This document shows positions 20,481 through 45,725 of a stretch of DNA of 64,000 nt, piece by piece. This stretch comes from Polytrichum commune (Eukaryota; Streptophyta; Polytrichopsida; Polytrichales; Polytrichaceae): NCBI GenBank assembly GCA_950295325.1, contig OX485809.1, positions 5,330,001-5,394,000 of the forward strand, read 5' to 3'. A model generated the notes under the pieces. The model saw only the letters and a program-made list of their open reading frames with translations, ran no database searches and was not told the DNA's origin. Each line of letters opens with the position of its first letter. The first letter of the stretch is position 1. Both the position numbers and the translations under genes were made by a program.

Positions 20481-20987
20481 AACTTTGTAGTTGTAATCCC
20501 CAACTACCTCACTAATTATTCAAGCCCTTAACTAATCTTCCTACCTAATTTCCCTAATTCTACTAACAACCCCTTTCTAATCACACAATTCTTCTCTAAT
20601 CCTAAAATCCTAAAATCCTAGAGAGGAGAGGGGGAGAGAGAATTTCCTAACTTCACTAAGACCAACTAATCCACACAAGTATATTTTTGCACTCATCACA
20701 ACATCAAGTGCTCAACTCTTAAACATGGAACTTGCAACCACGTGTATTCAAAACATGAACTTTAAGTACCACAAATTGGAATCATGAATTAACTTTAAAA
20801 TCCTTCACGTCAACACTAATTCTACCAAGAGGTCAAGCCCTCTTCAAGGCTAACAAGCCTTGGCTCTCAAACTAAAAACTAAGCACACACATGTGCTCCA
20901 ATATGGCTTCCCACACCCACACTTATAACTCGTGGGGTGCCTTGGAGCACAAAGGAAAGAGAGGATGAGTGAGGGAAGAATGAGGGA

Positions 20988-20997
20988 TTATATAGTA
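20988..20997 (-). promoter_or_regulatory. Candidate TATA box of gypsy-1 LTR (also at 30336-30345)
   Basis: On the minus strand the LTR reads ACTATATAAT about 700 bases into the LTR, a good match to a plant TATA box. If used, transcripts would start roughly 30 bases further on, making R and U5 together about 1.4 kb. This is a motif match only. Confidence 0.35.
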
Positions 20998-21695
20998 AGC
21001 TTGAGGGGGTGAGCACCCTCAAGGCTCACGATAAGCCCTTAAGATTTCCTCCTACTTAGTAGGCGCCAATCCTATCTTCTAAGCCTTCCTCCCTCAAATG
21101 ATCAACAAGGATCCTAATTCGAACATTTAACTAGCCTTGGCTTTCTACCTACCACACTTTACCAAACTTGGGATGCTTCAACCCAAACTTAGCCTCCTTC
21201 GCTTTCCGCCGCCATAACTTTCTCCCCTTACTTTCCCAAATCGTCGCTCACCACTTAATTCAAACCACGATGCTTAACTCGTGATTTGATTGGTGCTTTG
21301 AGAATTTGCTTATCCTCCACCTTGCATTCTTCCTTGGGCCTTCCCCATTAAGTGGCCATGATGAGGTGGTCCACTTGTGCGCTCCATGTGATCCTCCATT
21401 CATCCCAATTCGAATGCACTTGCCTCTTGAGTCACTTTGGTTGTCTCCATCCATTTGTACTAGCCTACTCACTAACTACTCAATCCAAGTTCTCCTTACC
21501 TATCCTCATTCACTCAAATCCTTCCGAAGGTAAAAACACAATAACAACTCACATCCTAGCCTCTTACAACATGGTACTTCTAAGACTAACATTTCACTCT
21601 TTTTATATTTTTGTGAAGTAACATGCTACTTCAAAGTGCATCAACTAACGTTTCAAGGGTCTAAGACTAAATGTGGGCACCCTTTTGGGCTCACA

Positions 21696-21756
21696 TAATT
21701 GGCGACCATCGGGGGATGAATCCAAACATCTCTTGCTCCAAGGGTAAGTTGCCTAG
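21696..21756 (-). other. gypsy-1 3' junction without clear polypurine tract
   Basis: Only 61 bases separate the integrase stop from the 3' LTR. They end in CGCCAATTA on the minus strand and hold no long purine run, where a polypurine tract would be expected. On the plus strand this junction reads TAATTGGCGACCATCGGGGG, which looks like a primer-binding site. The other junction at 28895 carries the same TAATTGG facing the opposite way. Confidence 0.5.
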
Positions 21757-23565: not shown

Positions 23566-23571
23566 ATGGGT

Positions 23572-26500
23572 TTAGGGCACCGCTATCTTTGAAAAATTAG
23601 GAATAAGTTCCCGGTACCATCCCACATGTCCTAACAACTTAGAGATCCCCTTGGAATTGGTTGGAGTTGCCAAGTCGCTTATGGCCGCAATCTTATCCGG
23701 ATCGGGTTCTCTACCTTTCTCACTAACAACATAACCCAACAACACTCCCTTATTCACTCCCAAAAATGTCTTATCCGGGTTCAATGCTAACCTCATCTTC
23801 CTACACCTAACCAATGCCTCCCTAACACAATGTAGGTGATCATCCACATTACTTTGTGTGCTAAAATCGTCCACAAAGACGGTCATGGATTTGAACAACA
23901 AGTCGGTGAAGATATACATTACTAATCGTTGGAAAGTAGCCGGGGCATTACATAACCCAAATGGCATCACTACCCACACAAAAGTACCCCAAGGTGTAGT
24001 AAAAGCCGTTTTATGGATATCTTGGAGGGCTATGGAAATTTGATTATAACCCGCATACCCATCCATAAAGGTATATCGCGAATGACCTCCAACCTCCTCA
24101 AGCAACAAGGTGATAAAAGGTAAGGGGAAGTGATCATTTTGTGTGCACGAATTCAATTTCCTATAGTCGACACAAACCCTTAATTTCCCATTTTTTTTCT
24201 TTACTAAGACCATAGGAGAAACCCAATCCGTGATTTCCACCGGCTTGATAAACCCGGCCTTCAATAACCTTTCCAATTCCGCTTTCACCAACAATTGCAA
24301 TTGAGGATTCATCCTCCTCTCCTTTTGTCTAATTGGCCTCGCCCCCGGAATTAAAGGAATCCGGTGCTCTACCATTTCCCTAGGAATTCCCTTAAGCTCA
24401 TCGTAGGACCATGCAAAAGTATCACTAAACTCATCCACCAAATTGCTATACTCCCTAACCTCTTTCTCCCCCAATTTGGAGCCCATCTTCATTTGTCGGG
24501 TTTTTCCATTCTTTAATTTCACATCCACGTACCGCCAATCCGCTTCCGACACATGTGCTTGTTCCTCTTTGTTCCGATACCAATCGGAAGGCACATTGGG
24601 GTAATCTTTCACATCTTGACCTACAACTATCCCCGTAGACGTGGTCTTGAAATGTAAAGGCTCCTCCAATTTCGATGACTCAATAATCACATCCTCCTCT
24701 TGAGTCCCATCTACATGAATTAAACTAACCTCACCCTCTTCCACGTCATCTACCCAAGGTGTTAACCCACCGCTAACCCACTCTTCCTCGGTGAGCACCT
24801 CACATGGCTCCAACAATGAGCCCTTTCCTAAACTAACACTAGGAAATTCACTCCCTAAGCCTACTTGGTGAAATGTAACCATTACATCAACCTCGGACTC
24901 GGGGTACTCCCTTAGCCATTGGGCATAATCCCCATTATCCCCATAATTGTAAAAATTAGGACCTAGACTTCCCGAGCCCGAATCTATAACAACCCTTTGA
25001 CCTTCGGGATGGACGACTCCCACCAATGCCTTGCCAATCTCATTCTCGTTTAAGTCATCAATTTCCTTCTCCAATGGCAAATACATCTCCTTCTTCATCC
25101 ATCCTTCTAATGAACCAATGGACACTATGACCCTATTACCCTCCGGACCATAAGTGATGGATGGTTTAGGTCCACCCCAATTGACCATAGCATTCGCCAT
25201 CCGCAACCAAGGCCTACCTAGCAAAATGGGGAAGGTGTCCTTGTTGGAGTGCATTTTAATGACATGGAAGGTGACCAAGTACTCCTCACCTCCCGTAGTC
25301 ATTCTACAATCCTTGATCATCCCCAAAGGCGTAGTCGAACTTTGATTTGCCATATTTATGACCAAAGGTGAAGGCCCCGTGAGTCCAAGTCCCAATTTTT
25401 TCATAGTATCCTCCGGTAGTATATTTAGACTACTCCCTCCGTCGACTAGCACATTAGGAACCACCTTATCTACTATAACAACTTCTATTTCTATAGCTTT
25501 CACGTCTCTTCCACCTTGTGATTGGATCCTAGCGGCTATTTTAGCTTTCACCTTCCTCATCCTCTTGTGTACCGGCATTCCCTCCTTTAATGTTTTCCTT
25601 GCCGTGGGTGAAATTTCCAATAGTTGGCCGAAAGTAATATCCGCCTTGAGTGTACTAAGGTCCGCCCACAAGTCGTACCCGGTAGATCTTTCCACCTTAG
25701 AATTACCCACTACGTCGAATTCGTCTACGGGAACCCCCGGTCCTTCCCATTCACCCACATCGCTATTATCCAAGTCATGTACCGCATTAGTCCTCTCCCT
25801 ATCTTGTAAAATTATATTTTCCCTCTCCACATCCTTAGTAGCTCTTCTAGCTACCCTATCCAACTCGGAGAGATTAATCTCTTCATCCGAAGAGTAATTT
25901 CCTTGCTCTCCTATTCCTACCTCCAACGGGGCATCCCCTCTCCTAGCCCTAGTAGTTACCGCTAGTGCAGGTGCTTCTTCAACCACACCCTTACCCTTCA
26001 CTAACTCATATGTAATAGCATTGGTGTGAGGAGGCCATTGACTTTGCTCCTCTCCAATTCTCGTTGGGAGAGGAAGCATGTCATCACATGTGGCCTCCAA
26101 CACTCCATCCATGAACCTAACATCTTGGGAGTTAGATGGTCCCAGATCCGTTGGAGGCGCTTGTCTCCCGTTACTACCATTAGGTGGAACTCCTTGTCTA
26201 TTTTGTATTGGAATGTAACCGGTTGTAGTTTGCAAGCCCGCCGGTGGATGAAAAGTTTGCCTAGCATTACTATGGTCATAGTATAAGTTAGGTGGCCTAA
26301 GTTCATTGGCCGGTACTCCTTGTGGCCTAGCACCTCGCATATTATCCCTTGCTTGTTGTTGTGGATTAGCCACCGGGTAAGGGACATTAATTATTTTGTC
26401 CGGTTGGCGACACGTATCCGAGGGATGACTTCCTCCACAATTGCTACAATTAAACTCTTGACCTTCGGACCAACATTGTCCTTGAGCGTGCCACCTTCCA

Positions 26501-27987
26501 CAAAAGGGATGAAATTCCTTCTTCTCTAAATTTTGGCCACCTTGCCCTCTAGGTTGTGGTCCTCTATTGCTTCCATTTCCATAGTGAGGTGGCGCTTGAC
26601 CTCGTTGATTTTGTTGAGGTGGGTTACCGTTTCCTCTTTGGTCACGGTTTTGTCCACTTCTACAAAATTGACGCGTGTGGCCCGGTTGGCCACATTGGAC
26701 ACACCATAATCCGGAAGAATGCCTACCCGACTCAACCGGGGGTGGAGGCCCCGGTTGTTGACTCCGGATCATTAATGACATTTGATCCGTGAGGCTTTGC
26801 ATTTGTTTTATCATAGCCTCTTGGAATCCTAGTTGGCTAGCACCTAGTCTTCTCTCAACCTCCTCCAAGTGTGGATCCGTTCTAGGGGCCGGTAGTGCCA
26901 AAAGAGGTGCCGGTTCCCTAACCGCTAAAGGTCGGGGACCGGTGTCCACAATGGCATATGGAATTTGGTTCTCATACTTAGCGGGTTCTACCGCTACCAC
27001 CCTAGGGCGTATGGGGATGAATTGTGGGATCAATTCATCCTCCATTCTCCATAGCCTTTCGTGATCTTTATCCAAGTTTTCAATATCTCTAGCCGCACGC
27101 TTGGCATCCGCCAAGGTCAAGGGATTCCTTTCTAGAACACCCCTAATAGTTCCGGACTTAAAAAACCCTTGAATGAAAAATTGCTTTAGCGTGTCGTCGT
27201 TGAGCATGGTACCCACAAATCTAGTGCACACTAAATCAAACCTCCTAATGTAAGCCGAAATTTCTTCCTCCCTTCCTTGCTTCAATGACGACAATGCCCT
27301 TAATGCGGTACTTTGACCCACTTCCGGCCTAAATTCGTTAAGAAACTCCCTTTGTAATTGTTCCCATCCCCTAAAATGTCCCTCGGCATGATCCCGATAC
27401 CATTCATAGGCTTCCCCCTCTAGAATAGTAGGAAACCACACTAACCAATAACCCGGGTCGGTTATGAGGAAGCTAGCCAACCGTTCGATATACCGTTCCA
27501 TGTGCCGAGAGGGGTCCTCATCCTTGGTCCCATAAAATTTAGGGAGATGAGATGGCATATCCATCGCCGCTAAATTTTGTGGAACCACAATTGGTAGGCC
27601 TCTTGGCCTAACCAATGGGTCTATTGGAGGTATGGGCGGAATTGGGGGTATGGGTGGTGGATCCATCCCCCGTTCCTCGGCCATGGTGACCGGTGAACTA
27701 TTCAACAATCCCCTATCAACTTCTACCGGGAATTCTTCTCTAAGTGTGTAATTTTCCGAAGAAGTTTCACCACTCAATTTGGAGGGAGTGATCTCCTCTT
27801 CAAGTTGAGCTCCAAGTTCTAAGGTGTCTAGAATTGACCTAGTCCTAGGTTCGACGTTCAAACAACTCTCTATTCTAACATTATCTTGTTCTAATCTATC
27901 ACTGATTTTAGAGGACCGCCTCTTTCGAGTAGATTTCTCTAGTCCTACTATTAAACTTGGTTTTTGTGAGCGAGTCCTACCTTGCAT
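23572..27987 (-). CDS. gypsy-1 Gag-protease-reverse transcriptase polyprotein
   Basis: A single frame of 1,471 residues from the ATG at 27987. Residues about 140-310 form the capsid-type Gag domain (EAYEWYRDH, then EFLNEFRPE and LKQGREEEISAYIRRF). A CCHC knuckle CVQCGQPGHTRQFC is at about 429-442, and a second cysteine-rich block is at 496-526. Protease: VDGGSSLNILP with D849, then ILLGRPWLR near 922. Reverse transcriptase spans about 1220-1471: RVCVDYRKLN, MPFGLCNAPATFQR and catalytic FVDDF (D1373, D1374). An acidic linker separates knuckles from protease. The frame stops at TAA (23572-23574) right after SKIAVP, inside pol, and the same frame continues as RNase H and integrase. The expected host role is none; it makes particles and cDNA in the cytoplasm. 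Confidence 0.93.
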   Translation of the reverse strand: MQGRTRSQKPSLIVGLEKSTRKRRSSKISDRLEQDNVRIESCLNVEPRTRSILDTLELGAQLEEEITPSKLSGETSSENYTLREEFPVEVDRGLLNSSPVTMAEERGMDPPPIPPIPPIPPIDPLVRPRGLPIVVPQNLAAMDMPSHLPKFYGTKDEDPSRHMERYIERLASFLITDPGYWLVWFPTILEGEAYEWYRDHAEGHFRGWEQLQREFLNEFRPEVGQSTALRALSSLKQGREEEISAYIRRFDLVCTRFVGTMLNDDTLKQFFIQGFFKSGTIRGVLERNPLTLADAKRAARDIENLDKDHERLWRMEDELIPQFIPIRPRVVAVEPAKYENQIPYAIVDTGPRPLAVREPAPLLALPAPRTDPHLEEVERRLGASQLGFQEAMIKQMQSLTDQMSLMIRSQQPGPPPPVESGRHSSGLWCVQCGQPGHTRQFCRSGQNRDQRGNGNPPQQNQRGQAPPHYGNGSNRGPQPRGQGGQNLEKKEFHPFCGRWHAQGQCWSEGQEFNCSNCGGSHPSDTCRQPDKIINVPYPVANPQQQARDNMRGARPQGVPANELRPPNLYYDHSNARQTFHPPAGLQTTTGYIPIQNRQGVPPNGSNGRQAPPTDLGPSNSQDVRFMDGVLEATCDDMLPLPTRIGEEQSQWPPHTNAITYELVKGKGVVEEAPALAVTTRARRGDAPLEVGIGEQGNYSSDEEINLSELDRVARRATKDVERENIILQDRERTNAVHDLDNSDVGEWEGPGVPVDEFDVVGNSKVERSTGYDLWADLSTLKADITFGQLLEISPTARKTLKEGMPVHKRMRKVKAKIAARIQSQGGRDVKAIEIEVVIVDKVVPNVLVDGGSSLNILPEDTMKKLGLGLTGPSPLVINMANQSSTTPLGMIKDCRMTTGGEEYLVTFHVIKMHSNKDTFPILLGRPWLRMANAMVNWGGPKPSITYGPEGNRVIVSIGSLEGWMKKEMYLPLEKEIDDLNENEIGKALVGVVHPEGQRVVIDSGSGSLGPNFYNYGDNGDYAQWLREYPESEVDVMVTFHQVGLGSEFPSVSLGKGSLLEPCEVLTEEEWVSGGLTPWVDDVEEGEVSLIHVDGTQEEDVIIESSKLEEPLHFKTTSTGIVVGQDVKDYPNVPSDWYRNKEEQAHVSEADWRYVDVKLKNGKTRQMKMGSKLGEKEVREYSNLVDEFSDTFAWSYDELKGIPREMVEHRIPLIPGARPIRQKERRMNPQLQLLVKAELERLLKAGFIKPVEITDWVSPMVLVKKKNGKLRVCVDYRKLNSCTQNDHFPLPFITLLLEEVGGHSRYTFMDGYAGYNQISIALQDIHKTAFTTPWGTFVWVVMPFGLCNAPATFQRLVMYIFTDLLFKSMTVFVDDFSTQSNVDDHLHCVREALVRCRKMRLALNPDKTFLGVNKGVLLGYVVSEKGREPDPDKIAAISDLATPTNSKGISKLLGHVGWYRELIPNFSKIAVP

Positions 27988-28895
27988 TCCATAAGAATCG
28001 ATCGACCCTCACTTGACCACACATAATCCTAGCAATTCCCTCTTAATATTTTCACTTGTCTTGGTGTGGTTATAATTTTTTTAGGAGGTGAGGAAAAGAA
28101 CCTGCAAGCCCACTTAGGTGAAAGAATCCCAATAGGGGATAGGCATGTTCATGTTAATTTTTTGGTTAAGTCGGAGCATCACCTCCGCACCTTCCCGCAA
28201 ATTAACACTCACCACAATACCGATTGTGAGGGGGTGACCTTCCGAGTATATTATGTTAAAAGTCGAGGCTTCACCCTTCAACTTCTCACACCATCCACAA
28301 TTCGGGAATTACCCTCTACAACGGATAACAACAATCACGAGTACAAAAGGCATTCCTTAATTAGTTAATGAGTTCACTTTGAAGAAATAAACATACCTTG
28401 AGCAATCGCATCCCCCTGTGAGTTAGCACTCCCCTCAATCGTGACTCAATGTAACAACACCATAAACTTTGTGAAATATTAATTTAATCTAGAGCATGAA
28501 ATGACAACTCCCAAAACTTTGAGACTCACCCCGAGGTGAGTGTCAAAGTTCAATGTCCTAAGGTGAATTTACCCTCTAATGTTTTAATGAGCTACTCGGT
28601 TATAGGTTCCTTTTAAGTTCTTAGCAAATCCCCAAAAAGGTTGAGGACGCACCTTCGCCGCGCTCCTTCCTCAAAAATGAATTTGCGTAATTGACAATGC
28701 AATTCATTCCAAGGAATAGTTGAAATACAATGAATTCAAATGTAACCCAAAGAGAGAATACTTACCGAGTTTCGGGTGCTCCTTCCCTTCTCTCAAGTTT
28801 GTGTCTCCAATTTTTCCTAGTTGCCTCCAAGTCTCCTAGTCGCCTCCAAGTCTTGTAACTACGTTCCGCTTCGCTCCCGGCGGACGCACCAATTA
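27988..28895 (-). other. gypsy-1 leader and primer-binding region
   Basis: This is the 908 base untranslated leader between the 5' LTR and gag. Directly inside the LTR the minus strand reads TAATTGGTGCGTCCGCCGGG. The TGG after a short spacer is the normal start of a tRNA primer-binding site, but I cannot match the following bases to a specific plant tRNA. Open frames on the plus strand here are chance. Confidence 0.6.
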
Positions 28896-31043
28896 TGTGA
28901 GGCCAAACCCCCCACCCTTAAGCGTCCGTAGTCCGAGTAGTGGGTTTGGGCTCACATTCCTCCGCGGTATTGGATTTGGACTTGGATGAGTCCATAGTGC
29001 AAGGTTCACCCTTCAAGTGGTCTTGGATTTAACTGGAATTTCACGTTTAACAACTTAATGTACGATTTCAATACGTATGTGGAGAATGCACAAGTTAACT
29101 ATGTTATTTTAACCTCCTTATGCTCGGGTGCTATTTTGTCTTTGTTTGCTTCTAACGTCCATCCGGCCGCTTTAGCTACACAAGCCCTTAAGGATATCCC
29201 TCTCCTAAATGGAGTCCGTGCCGTTGACTCTATACTACCACTTGAACTATCACTTGTGTATTCCGTATCGCTACTATAAGAGGTCTCACTTGGTGTCTCC
29301 ATACCGTACATAAGCCTTTAAGTATTAAGAAATACTTATGTGACTTATGTCAATCTCTCCCTCGCACCTTTGGTCTTTGCTTCCTTTGTCTTGCCATCGC
29401 GAGAGTGCTCCACATTCTCCATTAATTTGTGCACGTGGTTTATTTTTAAAGAGAGGATGCAAGTGTTAAAAAAAACACTATTCTCTATAGTCAATCTCAA
29501 ATACATTTACTTGTGAAGGCCACACATAACACTAACTAGCATAATGTAACTAACTACTTGTCTATGAGCTAATTAGGTAGGCTATCTACTAAGCTCCTTC
29601 ATGAACCCATCTCTTTACTTTCTAATTACATAAACCTAGCTCCTTCATAAACCCAGCTCCTTCATAAACCCAGCTTCTTAGCTTCTAACTAAACAAACCC
29701 AGCTCCTTCATGAACCCAGCTCCTTAGCTTCTAACTAAACAAACCCAGGTCCTTCATAAACCCAGCTCTTTACTTTCTAACTAAACAAACCCAGCTCCTT
29801 CATAAACCCAGCTCCTTCATGAATCCACAACTTTGTAGTTGTAATCCCCAACTACCTCACTAATTATTCAAGCCCTTAACTAATCTTCCTACCTAATTTC
29901 CCTAATTCTACTAACAACCCCTTTCTAATCACACAATTCTTCTCTAATCCTAAAATCCTAAAATCCTAGAGAGGAGAGGGGGAGAGAGAATTTCCTAACT
30001 TCACTAAGACCAACTAATCCACACAAGTATATTTTTGCACTCATCACAACATCAAGTGCTCAACTCTTAAACATGGAACTTGCAACCACGTGTATTCAAA
30101 ACATGAACTTTAAGTACCACAAATTGGAATCATGAATTAACTTTAAAATCCTTCACGTCAACACTAATTCTACCAAGAGGTCAAGCCCTCTTCAAGGCTA
30201 ACAAGCCTTGGCTCTCAAACTAAAAACTAAGCACACACATGTGCTCCAATATGGCTTCCCACACCCACACTTATAACTCGTGGGGTGCCTTGGAGCACAA
30301 AGGAAAGAGAGGATGAGTGAGGGAAGAATGAGGGATTATATAGTAAGCTTGAGGGGGTGAGCACCCTCAAGGCTCACGATAAGCCCTTAAGATTTCCTCC
30401 TACTTAGTAGGCGCCAATCCTATCTTCTAAGCCTTCCTCCCTCAAATGATCAACAAGGATCCTAATTCGAACATTTAACTAGCCTTGGCTTTCTACCTAC
30501 CACACTTTACCAAACTTGGGATGCTTCAACCCAAACTTAGCCTCCTTCGCTTTCCGCCGCCATAACTTTCTCCCCTTACTTTCCCAAATCGTCGCTCACC
30601 ACTTAATTCAAACCACGATGCTTAACTCGTGATTTGATTGGTGCTTTGAGAATTTGCTTATCCTCCACCTTGCATTCTTCCTTGGGCCTTCCCCATTAAG
30701 TGGCCATGATGAGGTGGTCCACTTGTGCGCTCCATGTGATCCTCCATTCATCCCAATTCGAATGCACTTGCCTCTTGAGTCACTTTGGTTGTCTCCATCC
30801 ATTTGTACTAGCCTACTCACTAACTACTCAATCCAAGTTCTCCTTACCTATCCTCATTCACTCAAATCCTTCCGAAGGTAAAAACACAATAACAACTCAC
30901 ATCCTAGCCTCTTACAACATGGTACTTCTAAGACTAACATTTCACTCTTTTTATATTTTTGTGAAGTAACATGCTACTTCAAAGTGCATCAACTAACGTT
31001 TCAAGGGTCTAAGACTAAATGTGGGCACCCTTTTGGGCTCACA
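28896..31043 (-). repeat. gypsy-1 5' LTR
   Basis: The 2,148 bp partner of 19548-21695, with the same TGTGAG/CTCACA ends and the same internal minisatellite (29588-29828). As the element runs on the minus strand, this is the promoter-bearing LTR. Confidence 0.95.
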
Positions 31044-35775: not shown

Positions 35776-36315
35776 TGTCGTGTAAACTAAGATCGTTAAA
35801 CACAACAGATCGAGTGTCGGCGTCAACATCAATTAGCAAAATAAAATAGCAAACTAAAATGCTAAACAACCACCTCTTCAAGATGAGGGTTTCTCTCTCC
35901 AAGCTTAAGAAACTAAAATGTCTCCTTACAAAGCTTAAGAAACTCTAAAATTCACACACAAGAGTCAAGCTATCTCTCACTCCACAAAGGGAGAATCCAA
36001 GAGTGCAAGTGGTGGAGAAAGAATGCAAAGGCTTTACTCATAATCTACTATACCATAGCCATGAGAAAGCAACAACAAGCTCTCTCTCTCTCAAAAATAC
36101 ACTCACAAGACTTGACTTGACAACAATGGCAAGTCAAGAGGCCTTCCTCTCCATACAACCCCAATCCTATGTGGAGTTCATCCATGGAGTGGATGAACAA
36201 CTAACTAGGACTCCCAATGGAGTCCGTTACTCATCCCAACACACATGGACTCCTAGTGGAGTCCATTTACTCCTAAATTGACGTGACTTAGCCCCCGATG
36301 TCACCTCACGTGACA
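35776..36315 (-). repeat. gypsy-2 3' LTR
   Basis: It is 540 bp, begins TGTCGTG and ends GTGACA. The segment 35883-36315 is shared with the right LTR with one difference (TATACC against TACACC). The first 107 bases, U5 in element orientation, are absent from the right LTR. Three perfect or near-perfect hairpins lie at 36176-36198, 36208-36225 and 36245-36266. The start is supported by the related solo LTR at 53315, which also begins TGTCGTGTAAA. Confidence 0.8.
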
Positions 36316-36317
36316 GC

Positions 36318-36424
36318 TGTCGTGTAAACTAAGATCGTTAAACACAACAGATCGAGTGTCGGCGTCAACATCAATAAGCAAAATAAAATAGCAAACTAAA
36401 ATGCTAAACAACCACCTCTTCAAG
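36318..36424 (-). repeat. Extra U5-like block inside gypsy-2
   Basis: It repeats 35776-35882 with two differences (AATTAGC against AATAAGC, plus the first flanking base), ending at CACCTCTTCAAG. It is joined to the 3' LTR through two bases (GC). In element orientation the order is purine-rich AGTGGGGGCA, U5 block, GC, full LTR. This looks like a remnant of an LTR-LTR (U5-U3) junction. Confidence 0.75.
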
Positions 36425-36748
36425 TGCCCCCACTAGCAGATAAGGAGCCCCTCCAATCGGCTAGGAACAAACACACTCATCGGTAGAGTTGTTGAACATG
36501 ATGAAGTTGTTGCTACATCTATACATATTCAATTGGGTAGTGGTAATCTAAGGAATTAAATTCATGATTGACAAAGTAATCCAAAAACTGTAGGCTGGGT
36601 GCAATTTGAGCCCCATCCTTAATCGCCTTCAACAATTTATGTTGAATTCTTGGATAACTCTTTCAATGTGGTCTTAATTCCATAAAATTTCCAACCAACT
36701 AAATAACAACTTCACCACTAAAACATGTGGTAAACATTCACAAAATCC
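36425..36748 (-). other. gypsy-2 3' untranslated region
   Basis: About 320 bases between the pol stop and the U5-like block. They include a purine-rich CTAGTGGGGGCA on the minus strand beside the block, the best candidate for a polypurine tract. Nothing coding is seen. Confidence 0.5.
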
Positions 36749-39660
36749 TCAATCATGACCATTAACGGCCACGGAATGAGAGGCTTTCCGACAACGAGGA
36801 CAAACCCAATTACCAGAAGGAAGAGTCAAAAGGGGAGGTGTCAAACATGCCATGTGCCATCCACGTTGACATTGGTCGCACAATAACATTGTTGCAGCTC
36901 CTTTCTTCTCTCCACAAACATAACAAGGCAGACCCTGTGGTACAACCGCCAACTCGGGATGCACAGAGCCGTCGATGGGAAGGTGACATGGAGCACAATT
37001 CTTTGAATGCTCACGACATTCCCGTCTATGCTTGCCTTCAAGCAATAATATACCACTTGGCAAGACATCTTTTACCCGCAAAATCGTGCGCCCAGCCTTG
37101 ACATCCAATGTCGTAGGCGCCTCCCGTTGCAAGTAAACATAATCCCCCTTGGAAAATCTACGAACCTGAGGTCGATAAGCTCCACTGTGGATTCGGGCAT
37201 ACCGTAATGTATCACGATGTTGAGCAATATTTAAGTTCTCCATAGCCATAGGCATGGCCTTTTGGAAGAACGTTGCTCGGTCATGAAGACATTGAGCCCA
37301 AACATCTGGATCATCCAAGTTTACCACAGGAGCCAATTTCTCTCGCACCGAGTTAGGTAAAATTGGTTCCCGTCCATACAAGAGTTGGTAAGGACTATAG
37401 GATGCCAAAGATGCTTGCCTGCTGAAACGATAACCCATTGCTATCCATGGTAACATCAAGTTCCAATCGCGATGGTTGCCATGAAGCAATCCATACTTCC
37501 GCAAACCGCGCTTAACCGTCTGAACAACTCGTTCAGCTAAGCCATCTGCCTCAGGATGATCTCTGGAAGTTGTCCGATGATCAATCAAAGCCTTGGTACA
37601 CAAAGCCTCGAAAGATCCAAGGAATTCTCTCCCTTGATCCGTCAACACCTCTGCAGGTGTTCCAAACCGTGCCAAAACTCGATCAAGAAATGCCATAGCC
37701 GCCAATTCTGAGGAATTTTGGGGAAGAGCCACGAGTTCAATCCACTTACTAAAATGCTCCACCATCACAAGCACATACTTGGAACCACGTGGAGTGATAG
37801 TAAGCGGTCCGGCAAAATCCAAAGACCAACGATATCCCAAGCCCATAATAGGTAAAGGCTGAAGTTGAGGTGACAAAGTATTAAAACTTGACCTGACCCG
37901 GTCACATACTTCACACCGAGAAACATAAGTGGCAACCTGTTGATACATACCAGTCCACCAATATTGGTTGCGCAACATAGAGTGCGTCCTTCGTACTCCA
38001 AAATGTCCAAGCTCCTCGTGCACTTGCCGCACCAAAGAAGCTCTTTGATCTGGCCTTGGAACGATGCGCCTCGTTCCGTTCGGCCACACACGAAATAACA
38101 AGCTGTTTGCCCAACGAAACCTTGTTATCCGGTGACTAACTCTATCTCGCTCCACAGCAGATAGTCCAAGAGGAAATATCCCGTGTTGAAGTTTGTGCAA
38201 GACCGCCTGGTCTTCCCACACATCACTAACAACGAGAGATTTATCAACCTCCTCATCCTGTTCTTCTACAAGGATCTTAGCAGCCAATCCCGACATCATT
38301 GTGAGATATGTGGCAGCATGCCAACCCGGCACTGCCACACGATCACAATCTCCATGCCACCTGGCTCCAGTTAAATCCTCATCTGAAGGACTTGAATTGC
38401 GAGACAATCCGTCTACATCCAAGTTGGCAATTCCTGCTCGGTGAACAACTTCAAAATCATATTCCTGAAGTAACAATGCCCACCTAGCAAGTTTTCCGGT
38501 GAGCTTATCTGATTCCATAAGCCATTTTAAAGGCTGATGATCAGTCACCAAAGTAAACTTTTGCCCATACAAATAAGGTCGAAAATGTGCAATGGCCCAA
38601 ACGGCCGCCAAGGCCTCGCCTTCACAAGAAGAATAATTAGATTCAGCACTATTATTGCTTCTAGATGCATAAGCCACCACATATTCCTTTCCCTCTTCAT
38701 CTTTCTGTGTCAATACCGCTCCCAATCCCACTGCACTCCAATCCGTGTGCAATTGAAAAGCTCTAGACACATCCGGGCGTCGAAGCACTGGCGCTGAACC
38801 GAGCCTCTGCTTCAATGTATCAAATGCATGTTGTTGTTCCCGGCTCCAATTCCATGGTTGGTCTTTCCCCGTGAGAATGGTAAGAGGTTTGGCAATCAAA
38901 CTAAAATTTTTGACAAACCTCCTATAATAATTTGCCAATCCTAGAAATGCACGAAGCCGTGGTACATCACTAGGTGCGGGAATTTTGTGCAAAGCATCCA
39001 CCTTCGCCTGTTGCACACCAAGACCGCCAGGAACAATCATGTGGCCTAAATAGGACAATTGATCATGGAAAAACTTACATTTTCCATGATGTAAACGGAG
39101 TCCCCACCGTTGAAGTCGTTCAAATACCGCTTGCAAATGCCTCACATGATCCTCTGGACTATTACTAAAGATGATAACATCATCAATGTAACATCTAGCA
39201 AACGGCAAACCAGCCAATAATTGGTCCATCACCCGCTGAAATTCAGCTGGTGCATTCTTGAGACCAAATGGCAGAAATTTCCAATGATAAAGTTGATCCT
39301 TGCCATCTTTATCAATTCCCCAAAATGCGGTCTTCACCCGATCACCCAACAACAAAGGTAATTGGTGATAACCAGACCTCAAATCCAAAGTGCTAAAGAT
39401 TCTAGAAAATCCTAGTGCATCAAACAACTCCTCCGGCATCGGCATTGGATATCGATCCGACTTGGTCTTGCGGTTCACTGGACAATAATCACCACACATC
39501 CGTTTTTCCGTCCAGTTGCCAAAGATATCCTTCTTTGACGGCATAACCGTGGCACAAGCATACTCTCCATTGGAGAGTTCAATCAATTCCGCTGCCAATA
39601 ACTCTTGACATCGAGTTTGAACACCCAACCTTTCAGAGGTACTAAGTCTGTACGGCCTGT
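36749..39660 (-). CDS. gypsy-2 pol: reverse transcriptase, RNase H, integrase, PHD finger
   Basis: The frame spans 39832-36749 (1,027 residues), but its first 55 or so residues are out of phase with the true protein. Reverse transcriptase: MCGDYCPVN, LPFGLKNAPAEFQR and YIDD at 215-218. RNase H: HTDWSA with D364, E406 and D431, then DVDGLSRN. Integrase: zinc motif H605, H610, C640, C643; catalytic D672, D732 and E767. Then comes the gypsy C-terminal block NCAPCHLP. Residues 970-1014 form a PHD finger, C4HC3: C970, C973, C985, C988, H993, C996, C1011, C1014, with the usual tryptophan two before the last pair. PHD fingers read histone tails, so this one could direct integration. That is inference. 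Catalytic residues are intact. Confidence 0.92.
36791..36925 (-). other. PHD finger domain at the integrase C-terminus
   Basis: The spacing is C-x2-C-x11-C-x2-C-x4-H-x2-C-x14-C-x2-C, with LLCDQCQRGWHMACL and GNWVCPRC. This is the full zinc-binding set of a PHD finger. It sits where chromoviruses carry a chromodomain. It belongs to the frame 36749-39832. Confidence 0.9.
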
Positions 39661-39893
39661 CTAAAAATAGGGTGGTCGTCCTCGAGTTGAATACGAACAG
39701 GTTTACCTTTATATCCTTCAAGATCATGAAGACTAAAGGCAAAACAATTACGGTAAGAGCGAATAAATGCCCGTACCTTTCGTGCTTCGGCACTAGTAAG
39801 CTTTGGCCCCACTTCAATTGGCCAATCGTCAAACTCCGTGGTTTCCTTCTTCATAGAAGGATTGCCACTTGGTGCCAGCACAGCCTGTGATTG
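39642..39893 (-). pseudogene. gypsy-2 N-terminal edge of reverse transcriptase, frameshifted
   Basis: The frame is in phase with the preceding segment (40424-39894), separated from it only by the TAG at 39894-39896. It contains EARKVRAFIRSYRNCFAFSL and LEDDHPIFRQ, the standard start of gypsy reverse transcriptases. It then closes by a one-base frameshift near 39660, where the main pol frame takes over. The first methionine is nominal (codon GTG), so this is not an independent gene. Confidence 0.85.
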
Positions 39894-39896
39894 CTA
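39888..39896 (-). promoter_or_regulatory. Candidate stop-codon readthrough site TAG-CAA-TCA
   Basis: On the minus strand the frame reads GAC-TAG-CAA-TCA. It fits the leaky-stop consensus UAG-CAR-YYA known from tobacco mosaic virus and related plant viruses. It separates the methyltransferase segment from reverse transcriptase in one continuous frame. The match is seen; its use in this element is inference. Confidence 0.5.
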
Positions 39897-40460
39897 GTCC
39901 GTGGAGAGGGCAACACCTTTGCCCCCATCATCTGCACTTGAATCCAAATGCGTATCCTCTCCACTACAATCAGTTTGTGTAGCTAAATAGCTACCCACAT
40001 ATGAAGTATCACCAAGAAATAGAAGTGGAAACATTTTATGGGCCTCCAACTTCCCAAACTCTTGGGCCAAAGCCGAAAAAACACGTTGGGCTCGAAGCTC
40101 TTCCGCAACATGAAGTTTTAAAGAAAATAATCCCTCGGTGTCATTGACCTCAATGTGATCCTTGGATTGCGGCTCCATTGCCCCATGACCATTGTTCTCT
40201 ACCCTCAGAGTAAGCAATTGGTCATCCATACGTTGTTGAGCAGCAAGACAAATTCCAATTATCCACACAATGCTATTAAGATCCATAGCTTGCCCCAATA
40301 GGAAACGTCTCTGACCTTCCTGAAGCCCGTGAGCAGCCGTGGTGCATGTAGGAAAACCCATGGCGCATTCCCGCTCATCTGCCGTAGGCTCCTCATAAGT
40401 TTGGAATTTTGAATCCCAAACCATGCCAGGTCCACGAGATCGAAATGCAAAAGACTGGAT
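39894..40460 (-). pseudogene. gypsy-2 methyltransferase C-terminal motifs and linker
   Basis: This frame (ORF 40424-39894) takes over from the long frame after a one-base shift near 40460. It begins in the target-recognition region and holds the last conserved methyltransferase blocks. Motif IX is in DERECAMGFPTCTT. Motif X is in RRFLLGQAMDLNSIVWI, where canonical enzymes have GN and this one has GQ. A linker of roughly 110 residues without a recognised domain follows, up to the TAG. As it stands the methyltransferase is split across two frames. Confidence 0.85.
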
Positions 40461-41193
40461 ATGTCACAAAAGTAGGTAGTGCACCTCTCGGAATTCCCAC
40501 CTTGTTAATTAATGCAAATGGCAAGGTGTCACCCTTGGTAACTGCCAAGGAAACACGATGATCATCTAAAATGTCATCCACTTTGCGATCCATAAGGCGG
40601 GGAATGCGGGCAATCGCCGCTGAAAGCACCCGAGGTGTTACCAAGTTGGTCCAAAACCAACGAGGCCGATGAGCAAAGGATCCCAAAAATGCAGCATCCA
40701 AAAATGTTGGAGTACCCAGAATTTGGTGAATGTACTCACCACCCTTCACCACTTTGTGCCGGGTATCACCCAATAATGGTACATTTTCGAAAATGTACCT
40801 TGGCGGAGTTGATTGGTGGGTAAACCACCATTGCGTCAATCGCATCAAATCCGCAAACAAACTAGACCTAGGATCATCCAGTCCCTGGCTAGTTCCTGCC
40901 CGCGAATGGCCTTGACAAGGCCATCCTGCAATAATCAAATCCACGTGGCCCAACCTTCTCAAATCCTCATCACTAATCATAGTGACATCTTGAAGAAGTT
41001 GACCACAACATCCATGAATGGCAGAGGCTGACAATTGTGCGGGGTATCTCAACAACAATTGTTGGATGTGGTGTCGGACGGCTCTGTTGGCTGCATATCC
41101 AGTGTCTACATGAATATATCGCCAAACTGTAATTCCAGCTTCCAACACTGCCGCCAAACCTGTGCCAATGCCTCCAAAGATCTCCACAAGGAC
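40245..41193 (-). other. C5 DNA methyltransferase domain (two frames)
   Basis: The whole domain from motif I to motif X, across the frameshift. Motifs I, II, IV, V, VI, VIII, IX and X can be seen in the right order. The gap between VIII and IX, about 90 residues, is the target-recognition region. Its place between protease and reverse transcriptase is not standard for any main gypsy lineage. Confidence 0.9.
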
Positions 41194-42954
41194 AATACCT
41201 TCAGGTGATGGTTGCCAACGAATGGGTTGAGCAAAAGAAAATGAGGGTGAAGTTGGAGGTGCCTCTCCAAGATCCAAATCTTTTACAATGTGTCGACAAT
41301 GGTCGGATAACTCCTTAGGAGTTCGCCATGGTGGAGGTGGATACTTGACATGACGAGCAGGAATTTGAAAAAATGGTAAAAATTGTTGTTCTGCCGCATT
41401 ACAAGTGTAGTCCATTGTTTCCTCCAATAAAACTGGAGCACAAGGCAAATCTGCAACTGAACCGCTCCAACCAAACATTGCTTCCGCAACCATAGTCATA
41501 GCAGTGGCTGCAAATGTGACGGGAATAAATACCTTCCTGCCATCTCCAGTGGACCATCCCGGTCTAATCCATGCCTCTTCCGTCCAATTATCCAAACCAA
41601 AGCCAAGTGGGTAAAGAGCTTGCTGACCAACAAGTATATCATAGTTGGTAGCATTAGTAACAACACACTTCATTGACAAATGAATGTAAGTAGGCCCTGC
41701 CCCCACATGAAAAATCAAACGTAGAGGTGCCTTGGTGTAACCTGTTGCACGTTCAGTGCCCCCTACTAAAGTCACAATAGTGAATGGACAAGGATCCAAG
41801 CTTGTTGGCGTCAATCCAAGACTGTCAGCAAGTCCTTTGCCAATCATAACCGGTTGAGCACCGGAATCCATCATAACTCTCAGTGGTGTAGCACGGATAG
41901 TGGGCATATCCGTGCGTGAAACGACAAACAAAGATTTGTCGTTCATCAGCCGTACAACTCCAGGTTGCAAATTATGTCGTTCGCGAGCAGGCCTTGCAGA
42001 AATGTCTGCAAGATATGCCGCTCCCGACGCATAATTCGAAAATGACGTATCCACTGCTGAAATTGATGCTGGAGGAATATCAGTTTGCTTACCAAAAGCA
42101 ATGATCGCCGCATCCGCAAGACTCGCTCGCAAATTGGCTAAGTCCTCCACCTCCTCGGCCACAGGTACGTCAACCACAGCTTGGGATACTTGAAGGGATG
42201 GCAAATCCGCCTTACCTTCTAACATTCTCCCAGCTAAATGAAAAACTGCAGCAGGCTTGAAATCCGAAGCCATAAATTCCGAACCCGAGAAAATTGGCAT
42301 ATGGAGAATTTTATATGCCAATGCCTGCGTAACATCCTTCGAGATGGAATCCCCATCTCTCAAAGGTACAGGGTTTTTAGCCCCAACAACAGTGGTGTCT
42401 ACCAATCCAAATGAAAGATGTAAACGTGCTTGACCAATTTGATCAGCTGGTCCGGCATGGCGAGGATGTAGCACCTCGTTGCTACCACCACTCGTGGAAG
42501 CTACCGCATCTGCCAACGTTTGTGAGCGAGTAGAAGCCGCCGCCACCACCTCTCCAGATGCCCCAAACATATACATGTCCGACCCCGAGGTGCCACCACC
42601 CGCATGCGGCTCAGAAATTTGAGCAAAAGATGCAGAAGATTTGAGCTTTTGCTCAAGCTCTGCCACCTTAGCCTCAAGACTCTGCTCCCTTGGAGACTTT
42701 CCAGTGACATAACTGGCAGGCCGCATCTCAGGATGAAGTTGGAAACAATGATCCACATCGTGATTAGTGCCACCACAATGGTTACATTTCAATTGTCTCT
42801 TCTTAGAATTGTCCCCTGCCTTTACTGGTTCCATCTTTTGTTTTAATTTTCCCAAAGGCTGAGTTTTCTTCTTCCTAGGACAATTGGGATCATTCTTCGA
42901 ATGACCAGCTTCTCCACAACCCCAACAATGCAAAATCTTTTGCTCCTTGACGGG
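40393..42954 (-). CDS. gypsy-2 nucleocapsid, protease and DNA cytosine methyltransferase
   Basis: A frame of 846 residues in phase with gag, which is separated by one TAA. Zinc knuckles: CWGCGEAGHSKNDPNC (3-18, long last spacing) and CNHCGGTNHDVDHC (50-63). Residues 83-100 could be coiled. Aspartic protease: MMDSGAQPVMIG with D356, closing near YDILVGQQAL (431-440). Methyltransferase from about 581: motif I VLVEIFGGIGTGLAAV; motif II near RYIHVD (605-610); motif IV AGWPCQGHSRAG with catalytic C673; motif V DDPRSSLF; motif VI FENVPL (E716); motif VIII HRPRWFWTN (755-763). The GIGTGL and HR-R-FW-N forms resemble DNMT3. It would methylate cytosine C5 using S-adenosylmethionine. The target domain is cut by the frameshift near 40460. 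Confidence 0.92.
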   Translation of the reverse strand, partial: PVKEQKILHCWGCGEAGHSKNDPNCPRKKKTQPLGKLKQKMEPVKAGDNSKKRQLKCNHCGGTNHDVDHCFQLHPEMRPASYVTGKSPREQSLEAKVAELEQKLKSSASFAQISEPHAGGGTSGSDMYMFGASGEVVAAASTRSQTLADAVASTSGGSNEVLHPRHAGPADQIGQARLHLSFGLVDTTVVGAKNPVPLRDGDSISKDVTQALAYKILHMPIFSGSEFMASDFKPAAVFHLAGRMLEGKADLPSLQVSQAVVDVPVAEEVEDLANLRASLADAAIIAFGKQTDIPPASISAVDTSFSNYASGAAYLADISARPARERHNLQPGVVRLMNDKSLFVVSRTDMPTIRATPLRVMMDSGAQPVMIGKGLADSLGLTPTSLDPCPFTIVTLVGGTERATGYTKAPLRLIFHVGAGPTYIHLSMKCVVTNATNYDILVGQQALYPLGFGLDNWTEEAWIRPGWSTGDGRKVFIPVTFAATAMTMVAEAMFGWSGSVADLPCAPVLLEETMDYTCNAAEQQFLPFFQIPARHVKYPPPPWRTPKELSDHCRHIVKDLDLGEAPPTSPSFSFAQPIRWQPSPEGIVLVEIFGGIGTGLAAVLEAGITVWRYIHVDTGYAANRAVRHHIQQLLLRYPAQLSASAIHGCCGQLLQDVTMISDEDLRRLGHVDLIIAGWPCQGHSRAGTSQGLDDPRSSLFADLMRLTQWWFTHQSTPPRYIFENVPLLGDTRHKVVKGGEYIHQILGTPTFLDAAFLGSFAHRPRWFWTNLVTPRVLSAAIARIPRLMDRKVDDILDDHRVSLAVTKGDTLPFALINKVGIPRGALPTFVTYPVFCISISWTWHGLGFKIPNL

Positions 42955-43989
42955 TTAAGTCTCAGCTAAACTACTAGTAGCTGTGACAATTCTTCTTGGT
43001 TTCGGACTCTCTGTCATCCAAGATACCATATCCGTGGCATCATGTTGGCAAAGAGCCCGATCACATCTCTCAACCACGGCAAACGCTTGTGCAAGCGTAG
43101 CTCGGCCCTCGTAGTCGAGGATAATCCGAGGTGATGCCAACTCAAGTAGCCGCTTGTCAATCTTAGACAAAAAGATTTTAACAAGCTGACTCTCAGCAAA
43201 AACACCTCCCGACTCCACAGCAAATCGCGCGAGTCGCGTATACATGGTCCGTGGAGTATCATCCTTCTCTCGGCGGAAATCCTGGATGCGCTGCATTTGG
43301 TCTCGCCGAAACCCACCATACTCCACTTCCAAATGTGCGACAAATTCAGTAAGGGGATTAAACGGAGGTGGTGGACCAACAGCCGTCAATGCTGCCTGTG
43401 TAGCACGTGCCATCCGTGAAAGGGTAGCCGTGCTACTGCCAGCCATCATTGGCCCAAATGCCAGTTCTTGGTCCTTAGACTCCTCCAGTGGATCCTCCTC
43501 CTTTAAGGTAGGTGGAGCTAAGGTGGCAATCGCCCCATCTTTAAGGGCTGAAATAAGTTCAACCCGGGCCTCCCAATACTGCTCCACCTCCCGAAGTTGT
43601 CGCTGATGACCCTCTGTCCAGCGTTCGTAAGTTTGGAGTGCCTCATACTCCAAATGCTGAGGCAGAAGTTCAAAGGCATACCAATCATTGAAATTGGAAG
43701 ACCTTTGGCGTTTCTCCTTAATCCAGGTACGAAACCGGAGTTTCCAATCGGGCAAGGAAATTCCCCCAGCTCGACCTGAGAACCGATCACGCACTGAATT
43801 GTGGCGATCGTCCTCCATTTCGTCGAACGTGCCGACACTCCAAATCCGAAGCCTACTAGTAGTGTCCAACGCCGAAATAGGCTCAAAAGCCTCGTTGGTA
43901 TCTACCTCTGGCTCAAGATTTGTGGTATGCACGTTTTCCAAATAATCTGGTGATGGAGATCGATAATATCGGCTCCTAGTTTGCACCAT
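42955..43989 (-). CDS. gypsy-2 Gag, capsid part
   Basis: 344 residues from the ATG at 43989 (MVQTRSRYYRSPSPDYLENV). The C-terminal half matches the retrotransposon Gag fold: HLEVEYGGFRRDQMQRIQDF, TPRTMYTRLARFA and LVKIFLSKIDKRL. The frame ends at a TAA (42955-42957) in an ordinary context (ACT-TAA-CCC) just before the zinc knuckles, which continue in the same frame. A stop between capsid and nucleocapsid is not a usual regulated site, so I take it as a nonsense mutation. Confidence 0.88.
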   Translation of the reverse strand: MVQTRSRYYRSPSPDYLENVHTTNLEPEVDTNEAFEPISALDTTSRLRIWSVGTFDEMEDDRHNSVRDRFSGRAGGISLPDWKLRFRTWIKEKRQRSSNFNDWYAFELLPQHLEYEALQTYERWTEGHQRQLREVEQYWEARVELISALKDGAIATLAPPTLKEEDPLEESKDQELAFGPMMAGSSTATLSRMARATQAALTAVGPPPPFNPLTEFVAHLEVEYGGFRRDQMQRIQDFRREKDDTPRTMYTRLARFAVESGGVFAESQLVKIFLSKIDKRLLELASPRIILDYEGRATLAQAFAVVERCDRALCQHDATDMVSWMTESPKPRRIVTATSSLAET

Positions 43990-45280
43990 AAAATAATCAC
44001 TTGAGTACCTGCAACTATCTACAAGGTAATGGCAACCTGCACCTGTTGCGGGCTATCTAAATGACAATCCCTTGCCAAATGCCAAGTGTTTATGCCCCCA
44101 GAATTCCAAAATTGTGCAAAGGTTTGAGATTGGTAATTAAAATGAAAAATCAGCGTTGAAAAGGCTCATTTCCAAGGTGATTATGAACTCCAATCAACAA
44201 ACTAAGTGCACCAATGGACTCCTAGGAAGATTTCACACAAATTAGGCTCAAATTTCACTCCAATCGGAGTTAATTTGCTCCCAAAAACAAAAATCATTGT
44301 TGAAATTAGCAATTTCAGCAATGATTTTGACTTCCAATCAAAAATCCAATTACACCATTGGATTCCTTGGCAAATTTCACACAAAATAGGCTCAAATTTC
44401 ACTTCAATCGGAGCTAGTATGCCCCCAAATTTGAGCCTCAAAGTTTGTGACAATGAAATGCCAAATTTGAAAGTGAAAGTAAAAAAAAAAAATTAAAAAT
44501 TAAAACAAAAAAACAAAACAAAACAAATTAATTAACTTAATGAACTTAATCTAAGTAACTTAATTAGCCTAAATTAATTAAATTAACTTAACTTAATTAA
44601 CTTAATTAACTCAATATAATTAACTTAACTTAACTTAACCTAATTATGTAATTAATTAACTTAAAAAATAATAAAAATAATAAAAATAATAAAAGGAATG
44701 TCAACCCCCCTTACATGTCAACCCCCCTTTAAGGGGAAGCCAGCTGGGCCTGGCCGGAGCCCGCCCGCCCGTGGGGCCCGGCCGGCGCCCGCCCGCCTAG
44801 CTGGCCTGGGGGTCGGTGTCTGGGGGCCCGGCCTGCGCCACCGCCCGGCCCGGCCTGCATACGCCCGCCCCGGCCCCGGGATCTGCCGCCCGGTGCAGAA
44901 TGGGAGCTCCAAGAGTGTCCGTGGAGCTCCGGAGCTCAAAAAATAAAAAATAAAAAATAAAAAATTCGGATTTTAAGTTTGGTTTGTGTTTGTTTGTAAA
45001 TTAAAAAAAAATTAAACTTTTGCTTTTGCAAATTGCAAGCAAGAATGATGTGACTTGAGAATCTTGAGACCAAATGGAATCTCAAGATTCAACCATCAAC
45101 ACTTGAAGAAAACACAAAGAGACAACAAAAGAAAAATGGGAAGATTTCTCTCAAAATCTTCTTGAAGGTTGCAAGAAATGACAAACTAAGCTTTCAAACA
45201 CTTGTATCACTCATTTGCTCTCATTACTGGGCCATTCTGGCTCAGAAATACAACCAAAAATGAAAAATTTGAACAATTGT
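43990..45280 (-). other. gypsy-2 leader with structured blocks
   Basis: A 1.29 kb leader between the 5' LTR and gag. 44190-44430 is a direct duplication of about 135 bp (AATTTCAC(T)(C/T)CAATCGGAG in both). 44500-44690 is TTAA-rich low complexity. 44735-44925 is extremely GC-rich. No convincing tRNA primer-binding site is found next to the LTR; the minus strand there reads ACAATTGTTCAAATTTTTC. Confidence 0.65.
44735..44925. other. GC-rich block inside the gypsy-2 leader
   Basis: About 190 bp built of GCCCGCCC, GGCCCGG and CCGGCC motifs, flanked on both sides by A/T-only text. It is very different from the rest of the window. The overlapping open frames here (82 and 73 residues) reflect composition only. 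Confidence 0.8.
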
Positions 45281-45721
45281 TGTCAAGTATGAGGGTTTCT
45301 CTCTCCAAGCTTAAGAAACTAAAATGTCTCCTTACAAAGCTTAAGAAACTCTAAAATTCACACACAAGAGTCAAGCTATCTCTCACTCCACAAAGGGAGA
45401 ATCCAAGAGTGCAAGTGGTGGAGAAAGAATGCAAAGGCTTTACTCATAATCTACTACACCATAGCCATGAGAAAGCAACAACAAGCTCTCTCTCTCTCAA
45501 AAATACACTCACAAGACTTGACTTGACAACAATGGCAAGTCAAGAGGCCTTCCTCTCCATACAACCCCAATCCTATGTGGAGTTCATCCATGGAGTGGAT
45601 GAACAACTAACTAGGACTCCCAATGGAGTCCGTTACTCATCCCAACACACATGGACTCCTAGTGGAGTCCATTTACTCCTAAATTGACGTGACTTAGCCC
45701 CCGATGTCACCTCACGTGACA
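45281..45721 (-). repeat. gypsy-2 5' LTR, lacking the U5 block
   Basis: 441 bp from TGTCAAGTATGAGGG to GTGACA. 45289-45721 matches 35883-36315 with one difference. Compared with the left LTR about 99 bases are missing between TGTC and TCAAG, which is the part that would be U5. Confidence 0.85.
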
Positions 45722-45725
45722 CAAG
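45722..45725. repeat. Candidate target duplication of gypsy-2, right (CAAG)
   Basis: Matches 35772-35775. Four bases could agree by chance, but the family's solo LTR has the same duplication length. Confidence 0.6.

Follow-up and report, generated by a model that had tools for sequence, protein, structure and literature searches.

Within the 64,000-nt stretch of the Polytrichum commune genome analyzed here (contig OX485809.1, positions 5,330,001-5,394,000; hereafter the window), the minus strand carries a Ty3/gypsy-type element of 9,946 bp (35776-45721). Its parts follow one another in the order repeat A1, leader, Gag, zinc knuckles, protease (PR), cytosine methyltransferase (MTase), reverse transcriptase (RT), RNase H, integrase, PHD finger, repeat B1, a gc dinucleotide, repeat A2 and repeat B2 (Table 1). 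In a Pfam search of the window, RVT_1, RNase H, Integrase_H2C2, rve and PHD all matched a single frame, bearing out the Ty3/gypsy domain order of the original prediction. The preceding frame holds the DNA methylase match, and upstream of it in the same frame lie two protease matches that fall below their cut-offs (Asp_protease_2, E = 2.7e-4, 22 bits vs. 24.3; gag-asp_proteas, E = 8.4e-4, 20.3 bits vs. 28.2). The MTase is thus located between protease and RT, as had been proposed. The gypsy order PR-RT-RNase H-integrase, with a DDE (rve) integrase, a weak protease match and the MTase between protease and RT, was found in the window, in one copy each of two subfamilies and on a contig filed under a bacterial genome (see below). 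No Pfam profile matched the zinc knuckles of the window copy, and zf-CCHC stayed below cut-off in subfamily 2. The sequence directly after A1, read by eye, is TACTTGACAACAATTG, and tRNA and Rfam scans of the window were empty. The leader contains a 144-bp tandem duplication whose units are 76% alike (44139-44429) and, at about 44725-44910, a short G+C-rich stretch within otherwise A+T-rich DNA. Elsewhere in the window there is a degenerate tandem array (1-1014; periods of about 158, 249, and 407) and a second Ty3/gypsy element (19547-31043) with long gag and pol frames at 21757-27987; its 2,149-bp terminal repeats (19547-21695, 28895-31043) are 100% identical, and it is a very recent insertion.

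Table 1. Features of the MTase-carrying element in the window.
Feature	Position	Strand	Basis or remark
Target-site duplication CAAG, element 3' end	35772..35775		matches 45722-45725
Repeat B2, element end CACGACA	35776..35882	-	repeat search
Repeat A2	35884..36315	-	direct repeat with A1
Palindrome GACAGCTGTC at B1-gc-A2 junction	36312-36321		
Repeat B1, then 2-nt gc spacer (36316-36317) and A2	36318..36424	-	repeat search
ORF2: reverse transcriptase, RNase H, integrase (H2C2 + rve), PHD finger	36749..39832	-	Pfam
PHD finger, C-terminus of ORF2	36791..36925	-	PF00628, E 2e-10, 41 bits
TAG CAA TCA, conserved TMV-type-context stop between ORF1 and ORF2	39888..39896	-	
Poorly conserved linker behind MTase	39897..40220	-	30-40% identity between lineages
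DNMT3-like C5 cytosine methyltransferase, motifs I-X	40221..41208	-	PF00145; PDB DNMT3A
Retroviral-type aspartic protease region (approximate)	41617..41898	-	Asp_protease_2, gag-asp_proteas, both below cut-off
Two zinc-knuckle-like stretches, start of second frame (approximate)	42730..42933	-	CxxC...H...C read
Gag part of ORF1, ending at nonsense codon	42955..43989	-	frame comparison with open copies
Repeat A1, element start TGTCACGTG	45290..45721	-	direct repeat with A2
Target-site duplication CAAG, element 5' end	45722..45725		ends read

The copy in the window is broken, and copies with open frames exist elsewhere in the genome. Compared with open copies, it has a nonsense codon in gag and two frameshifts, one between MTase motifs VIII and IX and the other ahead of RT; the gag nonsense codon is absent from eight subfamily-1 copies in which the frame is open. 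The MTase motifs do lie in order on one strand, as originally read, but not in a single intact frame: motifs I-VIII fall in 40393-42933, and motifs IX-X (RECAMGF, LGQAMDL) in 39894-40424. Similarly, the long flanking repeats that had been taken for LTRs are real (A1 and A2 identical at 437 of 439 positions, 35878-36315 and 45283-45721; in another alignment, at 432 of 433 aligned positions with 5 gap columns), but they are not plain LTRs, in that a second repeat, B, of 107 nt flanks the 3' copy of A on both sides. The near-identity of A1 and A2 indicates a recent insertion. That three coding lesions accompany such similar repeats may reflect movement in trans, fast decay or assembly errors.

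When the host genome (407.8 Mb in 64 contigs, seven of 42-78 Mb) was searched with PF00145, 353 candidates were obtained and 123 were scored, all of them above cut-off and at least one being the host's DRM gene. A protein search with the element's MTase gave 659 candidates, of which the 140 scored were 61-100% identical; these multi-copy matches rule out a one-off insertion of the MTase. With at most one mismatch allowed, the host genome has 149 occurrences of the joint between A1 and the inner sequence, which marks 5' ends, and 121 of the A|B joint, a number that includes solo forms (backwards controls, 0). For the first 100 5' ends listed, MTase DNA followed in 91 cases: 80 had a scored match on the same strand no more than 20 kb away, and a fetched 1.2-kb stretch supplied it for 11 of the remaining 20 (in one case as a piece of only 24 residues). 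Of the nine others, two had RT or integrase in that stretch and seven had no match there. The MTase is therefore a regular part of this multi-copy family. The family falls into two subfamilies whose MTases are about 62-65% alike. Two MTase matches of equal score and frame length lie inverted and 15 kb apart (C3:7303023, minus; C3:7318369, plus), perhaps as an inverted duplication. Regarding the host's own enzymes, the genome has a permuted DRM gene (L094), a sign that the host is probably a streptophyte, and its seven large contigs would suit a moss; genes for DNMT3, MET1, and CMT were not found among the scored PF00145 matches, which is not evidence of absence since retrotransposon copies crowd the lists. 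Rough counts of C/T-type differences per site among subfamily-1 ORF1 copies (L011-L025; sums over 28 pairs divided by the sites in L015) were 0.88 for CG, 0.71 for CHG, and 0.45 for CHH, an order such as would be expected of DNA methylated in the plant manner.

The suggestion that the enzyme is a DNMT3-like MTase was supported by several searches. PF00145 matched the window's minus-strand frame with 46.7 bits (E = 3.8e-12; cut-off 22), so the proposed HMM check was positive. A profile of nine chosen element copies, searched against PDB, retrieved DNMT3A (7.8e-12) and DNMT3B (6e-11) ahead of HaeIII (1.5e-6), DRM (2.9e-6, permuted), HhaI (5e-5), and DNMT2 (0.007). None of the 50 distinct sequences with E values to 0.1 bore the name DNMT1 or CMT. 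The motif order is unpermuted (GGIGTG, PCQG, FENV, HRPRW, RERAMGF, LGQAMDL; I-IV-VI-VIII-IX-X), the correspondence of motifs IX-X to DNMT3A having been drawn by eye and from a third, insignificant HMMER stretch. Foldseek with a low-confidence AlphaFold model of the MTase from the bacterially filed contig (pLDDT 54.9) gave 103 matches at E <= 0.001, the best 50 of which were all DNMT3 entries. In a 14-row tree built without MET1, CMT, and DNMT2, the retrotransposon enzymes stood beside DNMT3A (89/92), and these together with DRM (94/98) were set apart from viral-contig enzymes, HhaI, and HaeIII. The predicted grouping with DNMT3 was thus recovered by the tree, but AU tests rejected none of the alternatives (retrotransposon plus phage enzymes, p = 0.158; DNMT3A plus DRM without the retrotransposon enzymes, p = 0.23; retrotransposon enzymes plus DRM, p = 0.065).

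An origin from a bacterial or phage C5 MTase rather than a host DNMT3, with the likeness in motifs VIII-X due to shared ancestry or convergence, would agree with the first of these tests. It is also favored by PADLOC, in which the bacterial type II (49.3 bits) and DruM2 (47.5 bits) profiles outscored two orphan-MTase profiles whose length resembles that of DNMT3A (30.2 and 27.7 bits; their reading as DNMT3 is our own), and by the motif IV stretch IAGWPCQG-S-G--GLDDPRS, which by eye is nearer to viral-contig enzymes (L095, L096, L098-L101) than to DNMT3A. Set against this are the PDB and Foldseek rankings and the two tree supports, and we consider such an origin unlikely. By eye, those viral-contig C5 MTases share the motif IV stretch GWPCQGIS--GHRLGLDDPRSGL with the retrotransposon enzymes, and in NCBIfam the MTase matched the dcm superfamily alone, below cut-off. 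Taken together, the PDB profile search, the structure search and the small tree all place the MTase closest to DNMT3, with the alternatives not rejected.

Between lineages, dN of the MTase is 0.22-0.27 (pS 0.72-0.76, saturated) and that of the linker 0.52-0.71 (pS 0.50-0.63). Pooled over 28 non-independent pairs of eight subfamily-1 copies, dN/dS stays at 0.13, 0.21, and 0.23 in RT, Gag, and integrase, and reaches 0.55 in the MTase and 0.61 in the linker. The MTase has thus been clearly constrained across long spans, but weakly so in recent copies. The subfamily-1 ratio, above that of RT and near that of the linker, is what might be expected if the MTase now served as a nucleic-acid-binding or chaperone part of Gag in which catalysis is dispensable. 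We find this decidedly unlikely in view of the low dN between lineages, the invariance of GGIGTG, Pro-Cys, ENV, and HRPRW in the nine aligned, chosen copies, and the retention of Pro-Cys in 53 of 55 distinct loci with a recognized motif.

Gag, knuckles, protease and MTase are encoded in one frame, ORF1, of 1386 aa in 8/8 subfamily-1 copies chosen for openness; in the two subfamily-2 copies chosen it spans 1366 and 1372 aa. This frame closes with TAG CAA TCA in subfamily 1 and TAG CAA TTA in subfamily 2. The reading frame is unchanged past the stop in all ten copies, and ORF2 runs unbroken to 1,045-1,047 aa in seven of them (interrupted in L013, L021, and L027). The border was recognized 51 times, corresponding to 47 distinct copies (four loci are duplicates), and was TAG in every case, followed by CAA (50) or CAG (1) and then by TCA, CCA or TTA; in L040 the MTase is present and the border was not recognized. 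The bacterially filed contig also has TAG CAA TCA, and the linker just before the stop is 30-40% identical among the three lineages. Conservation of TAG among young copies is partly due to descent, and the three-lineage comparison draws mainly on two fully read subfamily-2 copies and that one contig.

UAG-CAR-YYA is the consensus hexamer of readthrough of the tobacco mosaic virus (TMV) type, and gag-pol of murine leukaemia virus is another case of UAG readthrough. The element resembles the TMV type in its in-frame UAG followed by CAA-UYA, and differs in that a DNA-modifying enzyme precedes the stop. In a plant assay, readthrough reached 32% for UAG in its TMV context and was reduced or abolished with UAA, UGA or an altered C (PMC2754532). 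Since the MTase is upstream of a leaky-type UAG, it should be produced at Gag level, and we infer that each Gag chain comes with MTase, and a minority of chains with RT. If the UAG were an ordinary stop, ORF2 could be expressed by reinitiation or from a separate or spliced mRNA. This seems quite unlikely to us; the unchanged frame beyond the stop in 10/10 copies speaks against it, as does the preservation of UAG and CAR-YYA in three lineages amid a poorly conserved linker.

The third lineage is represented by CADCWO010000201.1, a 9,285-bp contig filed under an uncultured Synechococcales metagenome-assembled genome (MAG) and the one relative confirmed in a pattern scan of a prokaryote genome collection. 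Its MTase is 70% identical to that of the element over the whole length, and the contig (L102-L104) reads gag, knuckles, protease region, MTase, TAG CAA TCA, RT, RNase H, integrase, PHD, B, the GACAGCTGTC palindrome, A and leader, with ends that overlap by 127 nt. The same gag-to-PHD order and the overlap of its ends led us to reject L102 as a true cyanobacterial gene; the contig is likely plant DNA misbinned in the MAG and assembled from a collapsed repeat, and a circular molecule is possible. In the tree, subfamily 1 pairs with the MAG-contig enzyme and subfamily 2 lies outside (95/91), so the subfamilies may be older than the divergence between the host studied here and that of the contig. 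An identical topology would result if elements had been transferred between hosts. A PHD finger was present in every lineage examined (window, one copy each of subfamilies 1 and 2, MAG contig). Chromoviruses are Ty3/gypsy elements with a chromodomain, a histone reader thought to help site choice, at the C-terminus of the integrase. The element shares with them a histone-reader module in this position, and differs in having a PHD finger there, with no chromodomain among the Pfam matches.

Another feature of the element is the split arrangement of its terminal repeats. Eight of 11 fully read copies, in two subfamilies, have the form A-coding-B-gc-A-B (hereafter A-B-A-B), and three have A-coding-B; the outer ends are thus A and B, and this layout rules out plain, identical LTRs. 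A-coding-B was rejected as the basic form, as the three copies are equally simply explained by B1xB2 recombination, and the absence of GT-AG at the A|B joint argued against its origin by splicing out of the coding region. A set of 12 A|B joints, chosen because no MTase or an oddly distant one was listed for them, comprises five solo A-B forms, six with B1-gc upstream, and one truncated form. The element's termini are TGTCACG...CACGACA, and wherever both ends were read (16 insertions: the window copy, 10 other copies, and five solo forms) they are flanked by a 4-bp target-site duplication (TSD), which fits the Ty3/gypsy criterion of 4-6 bp. In the seven subfamily-1 copies that have both, A1 and A2 differ at 0-2 aligned positions and B1 and B2 at 0-2, gaps apart (the A alignment of L021 has 23 gap columns), vs. 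a mean difference between copies of 1.7% for A (0.7-2.8%) and 2.3% for B (0-5.6%). A and B therefore seem to be renewed in each cycle, as LTRs are. One copy has the same 137-nt internal duplication in both A repeats (L017 314-879, L018 2377-2941), which suggests that both were made from one template. The palindromic B-gc-A joint looks like joined element ends, and is a candidate template for both.

The existence of A-coding-B and solo A-B forms raises the question of whether A-B-A-B is a replicative form at all, or a product of recombination or nested insertion; A-coding-B would fit recombination between B1 and B2, and solo A-B recombination between A1 and A2. We hold a non-replicative A-B-A-B to be very unlikely: the arrangement predominates among the fully read copies of two subfamilies, the same A|B joint recurs at the 121 places given above, TSDs lie at the outer ends, the L017 duplication is common to A1 and A2, and the B-gc-A junction recurs on the MAG contig.

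Cytosine methyltransferases captured by retrotransposons, as mentioned in the original prediction, are indeed on record. In the part of the 2018 report available, KnitGypsy-Dnmt3 of Klebsormidium nitens is described as a gypsy element with DNMT3 in its Pol ORF and a DIRS-type repeat order, its MTase being under purifying selection and without activity in yeast, a result the authors deemed inconclusive (de Mendoza et al., 2018, PMC5890265). That element and ours have in common a DNMT3-type MTase in a gypsy polyprotein and A-coding-B-A-B repeats (here in 8/11 copies). In contrast, its available text places the DNMT in the Pol ORF, whereas here the MTase is encoded with Gag before the UAG. The same text makes no mention of a PHD finger, readthrough or target-site duplication; as the comparison is by description, KnitGypsy-Dnmt3 may share them. 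No match to the Klebsormidium element was found in the sequence collections scanned. SymbioDIRS-Dnmt3 of Symbiodinium, as described in the accessible part of that report, likewise has DNMT3 in its polyprotein and A-B-A-B repeats, but a tyrosine recombinase where our element has a DDE integrase (PMC5890265). DIRS elements are defined by a tyrosine recombinase and the lack of target-site duplications, and the rve integrase and TSDs found here differ on both counts. The Ectocarpus Sola element, in the excerpt available, is also a transposon with a DNA MTase, but it is a DNA transposon carrying a ParB/N4-cytosine or N6-adenine MTase gene (PMC12477816). A 2025 study, in its accessible passages, assigns some DNMT3 of streptophytes and dinoflagellates to retrotransposons (Copia and DIRS are named, gypsy is not) and confines to streptophytes a class that we read, from a truncated passage, as DRM (PMC12344493). 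In the literature searched, which included few subscription texts and no supplements, we found no land-plant element of this kind described, nor any description of an MTase before a UAG, split repeats with 4-bp TSDs and solo forms, or a PHD finger in one. DNMT3-carrying gypsy elements have thus been a known kind since 2018, and what appears new, no report having been found in the texts searched, is the leaky-type UAG behind the MTase, the TSDs and solo forms that fix the split-repeat anatomy, and the PHD finger.

These observations lead us to favor, by a little more than even chances, a Ty3/gypsy-type family in which a DNMT3-type MTase has become fixed in a Gag-protease-MTase polyprotein and acts as follows. 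Ribosomes would produce Gag-protease-MTase, and a minority would pass the UAG and add RT, RNase H, integrase and PHD finger, so that the MTase, present in every Gag chain, would outnumber RT. The protease would release the MTase inside the particle, where our best guess, from sequence, is that it methylates the element's double-stranded cDNA before integration, probably at CG. Pre-methylated DNA might then arrive resembling host heterochromatin, which would lessen host damage as well as DNA-sensing or repair responses, with early silencing as the price. The PHD finger could read a histone tail and help pick the site, as chromodomains are thought to do, and the DDE integrase would join the TGTC and GACA ends of A1 and B2, the palindromic B-gc-A junction being a candidate source of both ends for rebuilding A-B-A-B. 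It is doubtful, in our opinion, that the MTase instead targets the host's genome or silencing factors in trans, diluting the element's own silencing through raised or scrambled methylation. A position upstream of a leaky-type stop predicts high output that is not necessarily particle-bound, which would suit such a role, but as part of the Gag polyprotein the MTase would be expected to be packaged. Beyond methylation of the cDNA in the particle, one may tentatively conceive of the family as a distinct streptophyte kind of retroelement, although we would put this at rather less than an even chance. Such a kind would combine split repeats, A and B lying at opposite ends and being regenerated from an internal B-gc-A palindrome, on which a DDE integrase acts; a Gag-level MTase before a leaky UAG; and PHD-steered integration.

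Hosts silence transposons chiefly by marking them with cytosine methylation, and the long retention of an MTase in a retrotransposon is therefore a paradox. With three diverged lineages keeping both the enzyme and a conserved expression device, the paradox becomes testable: is the cDNA methylated before integration, and is the ratio of MTase to RT important? In addition, a DDE integrase together with split repeats calls for a replication route outside the textbook LTR mechanisms. If the family is indeed such a distinct kind of retroelement, it would write its own epigenetic mark before landing.
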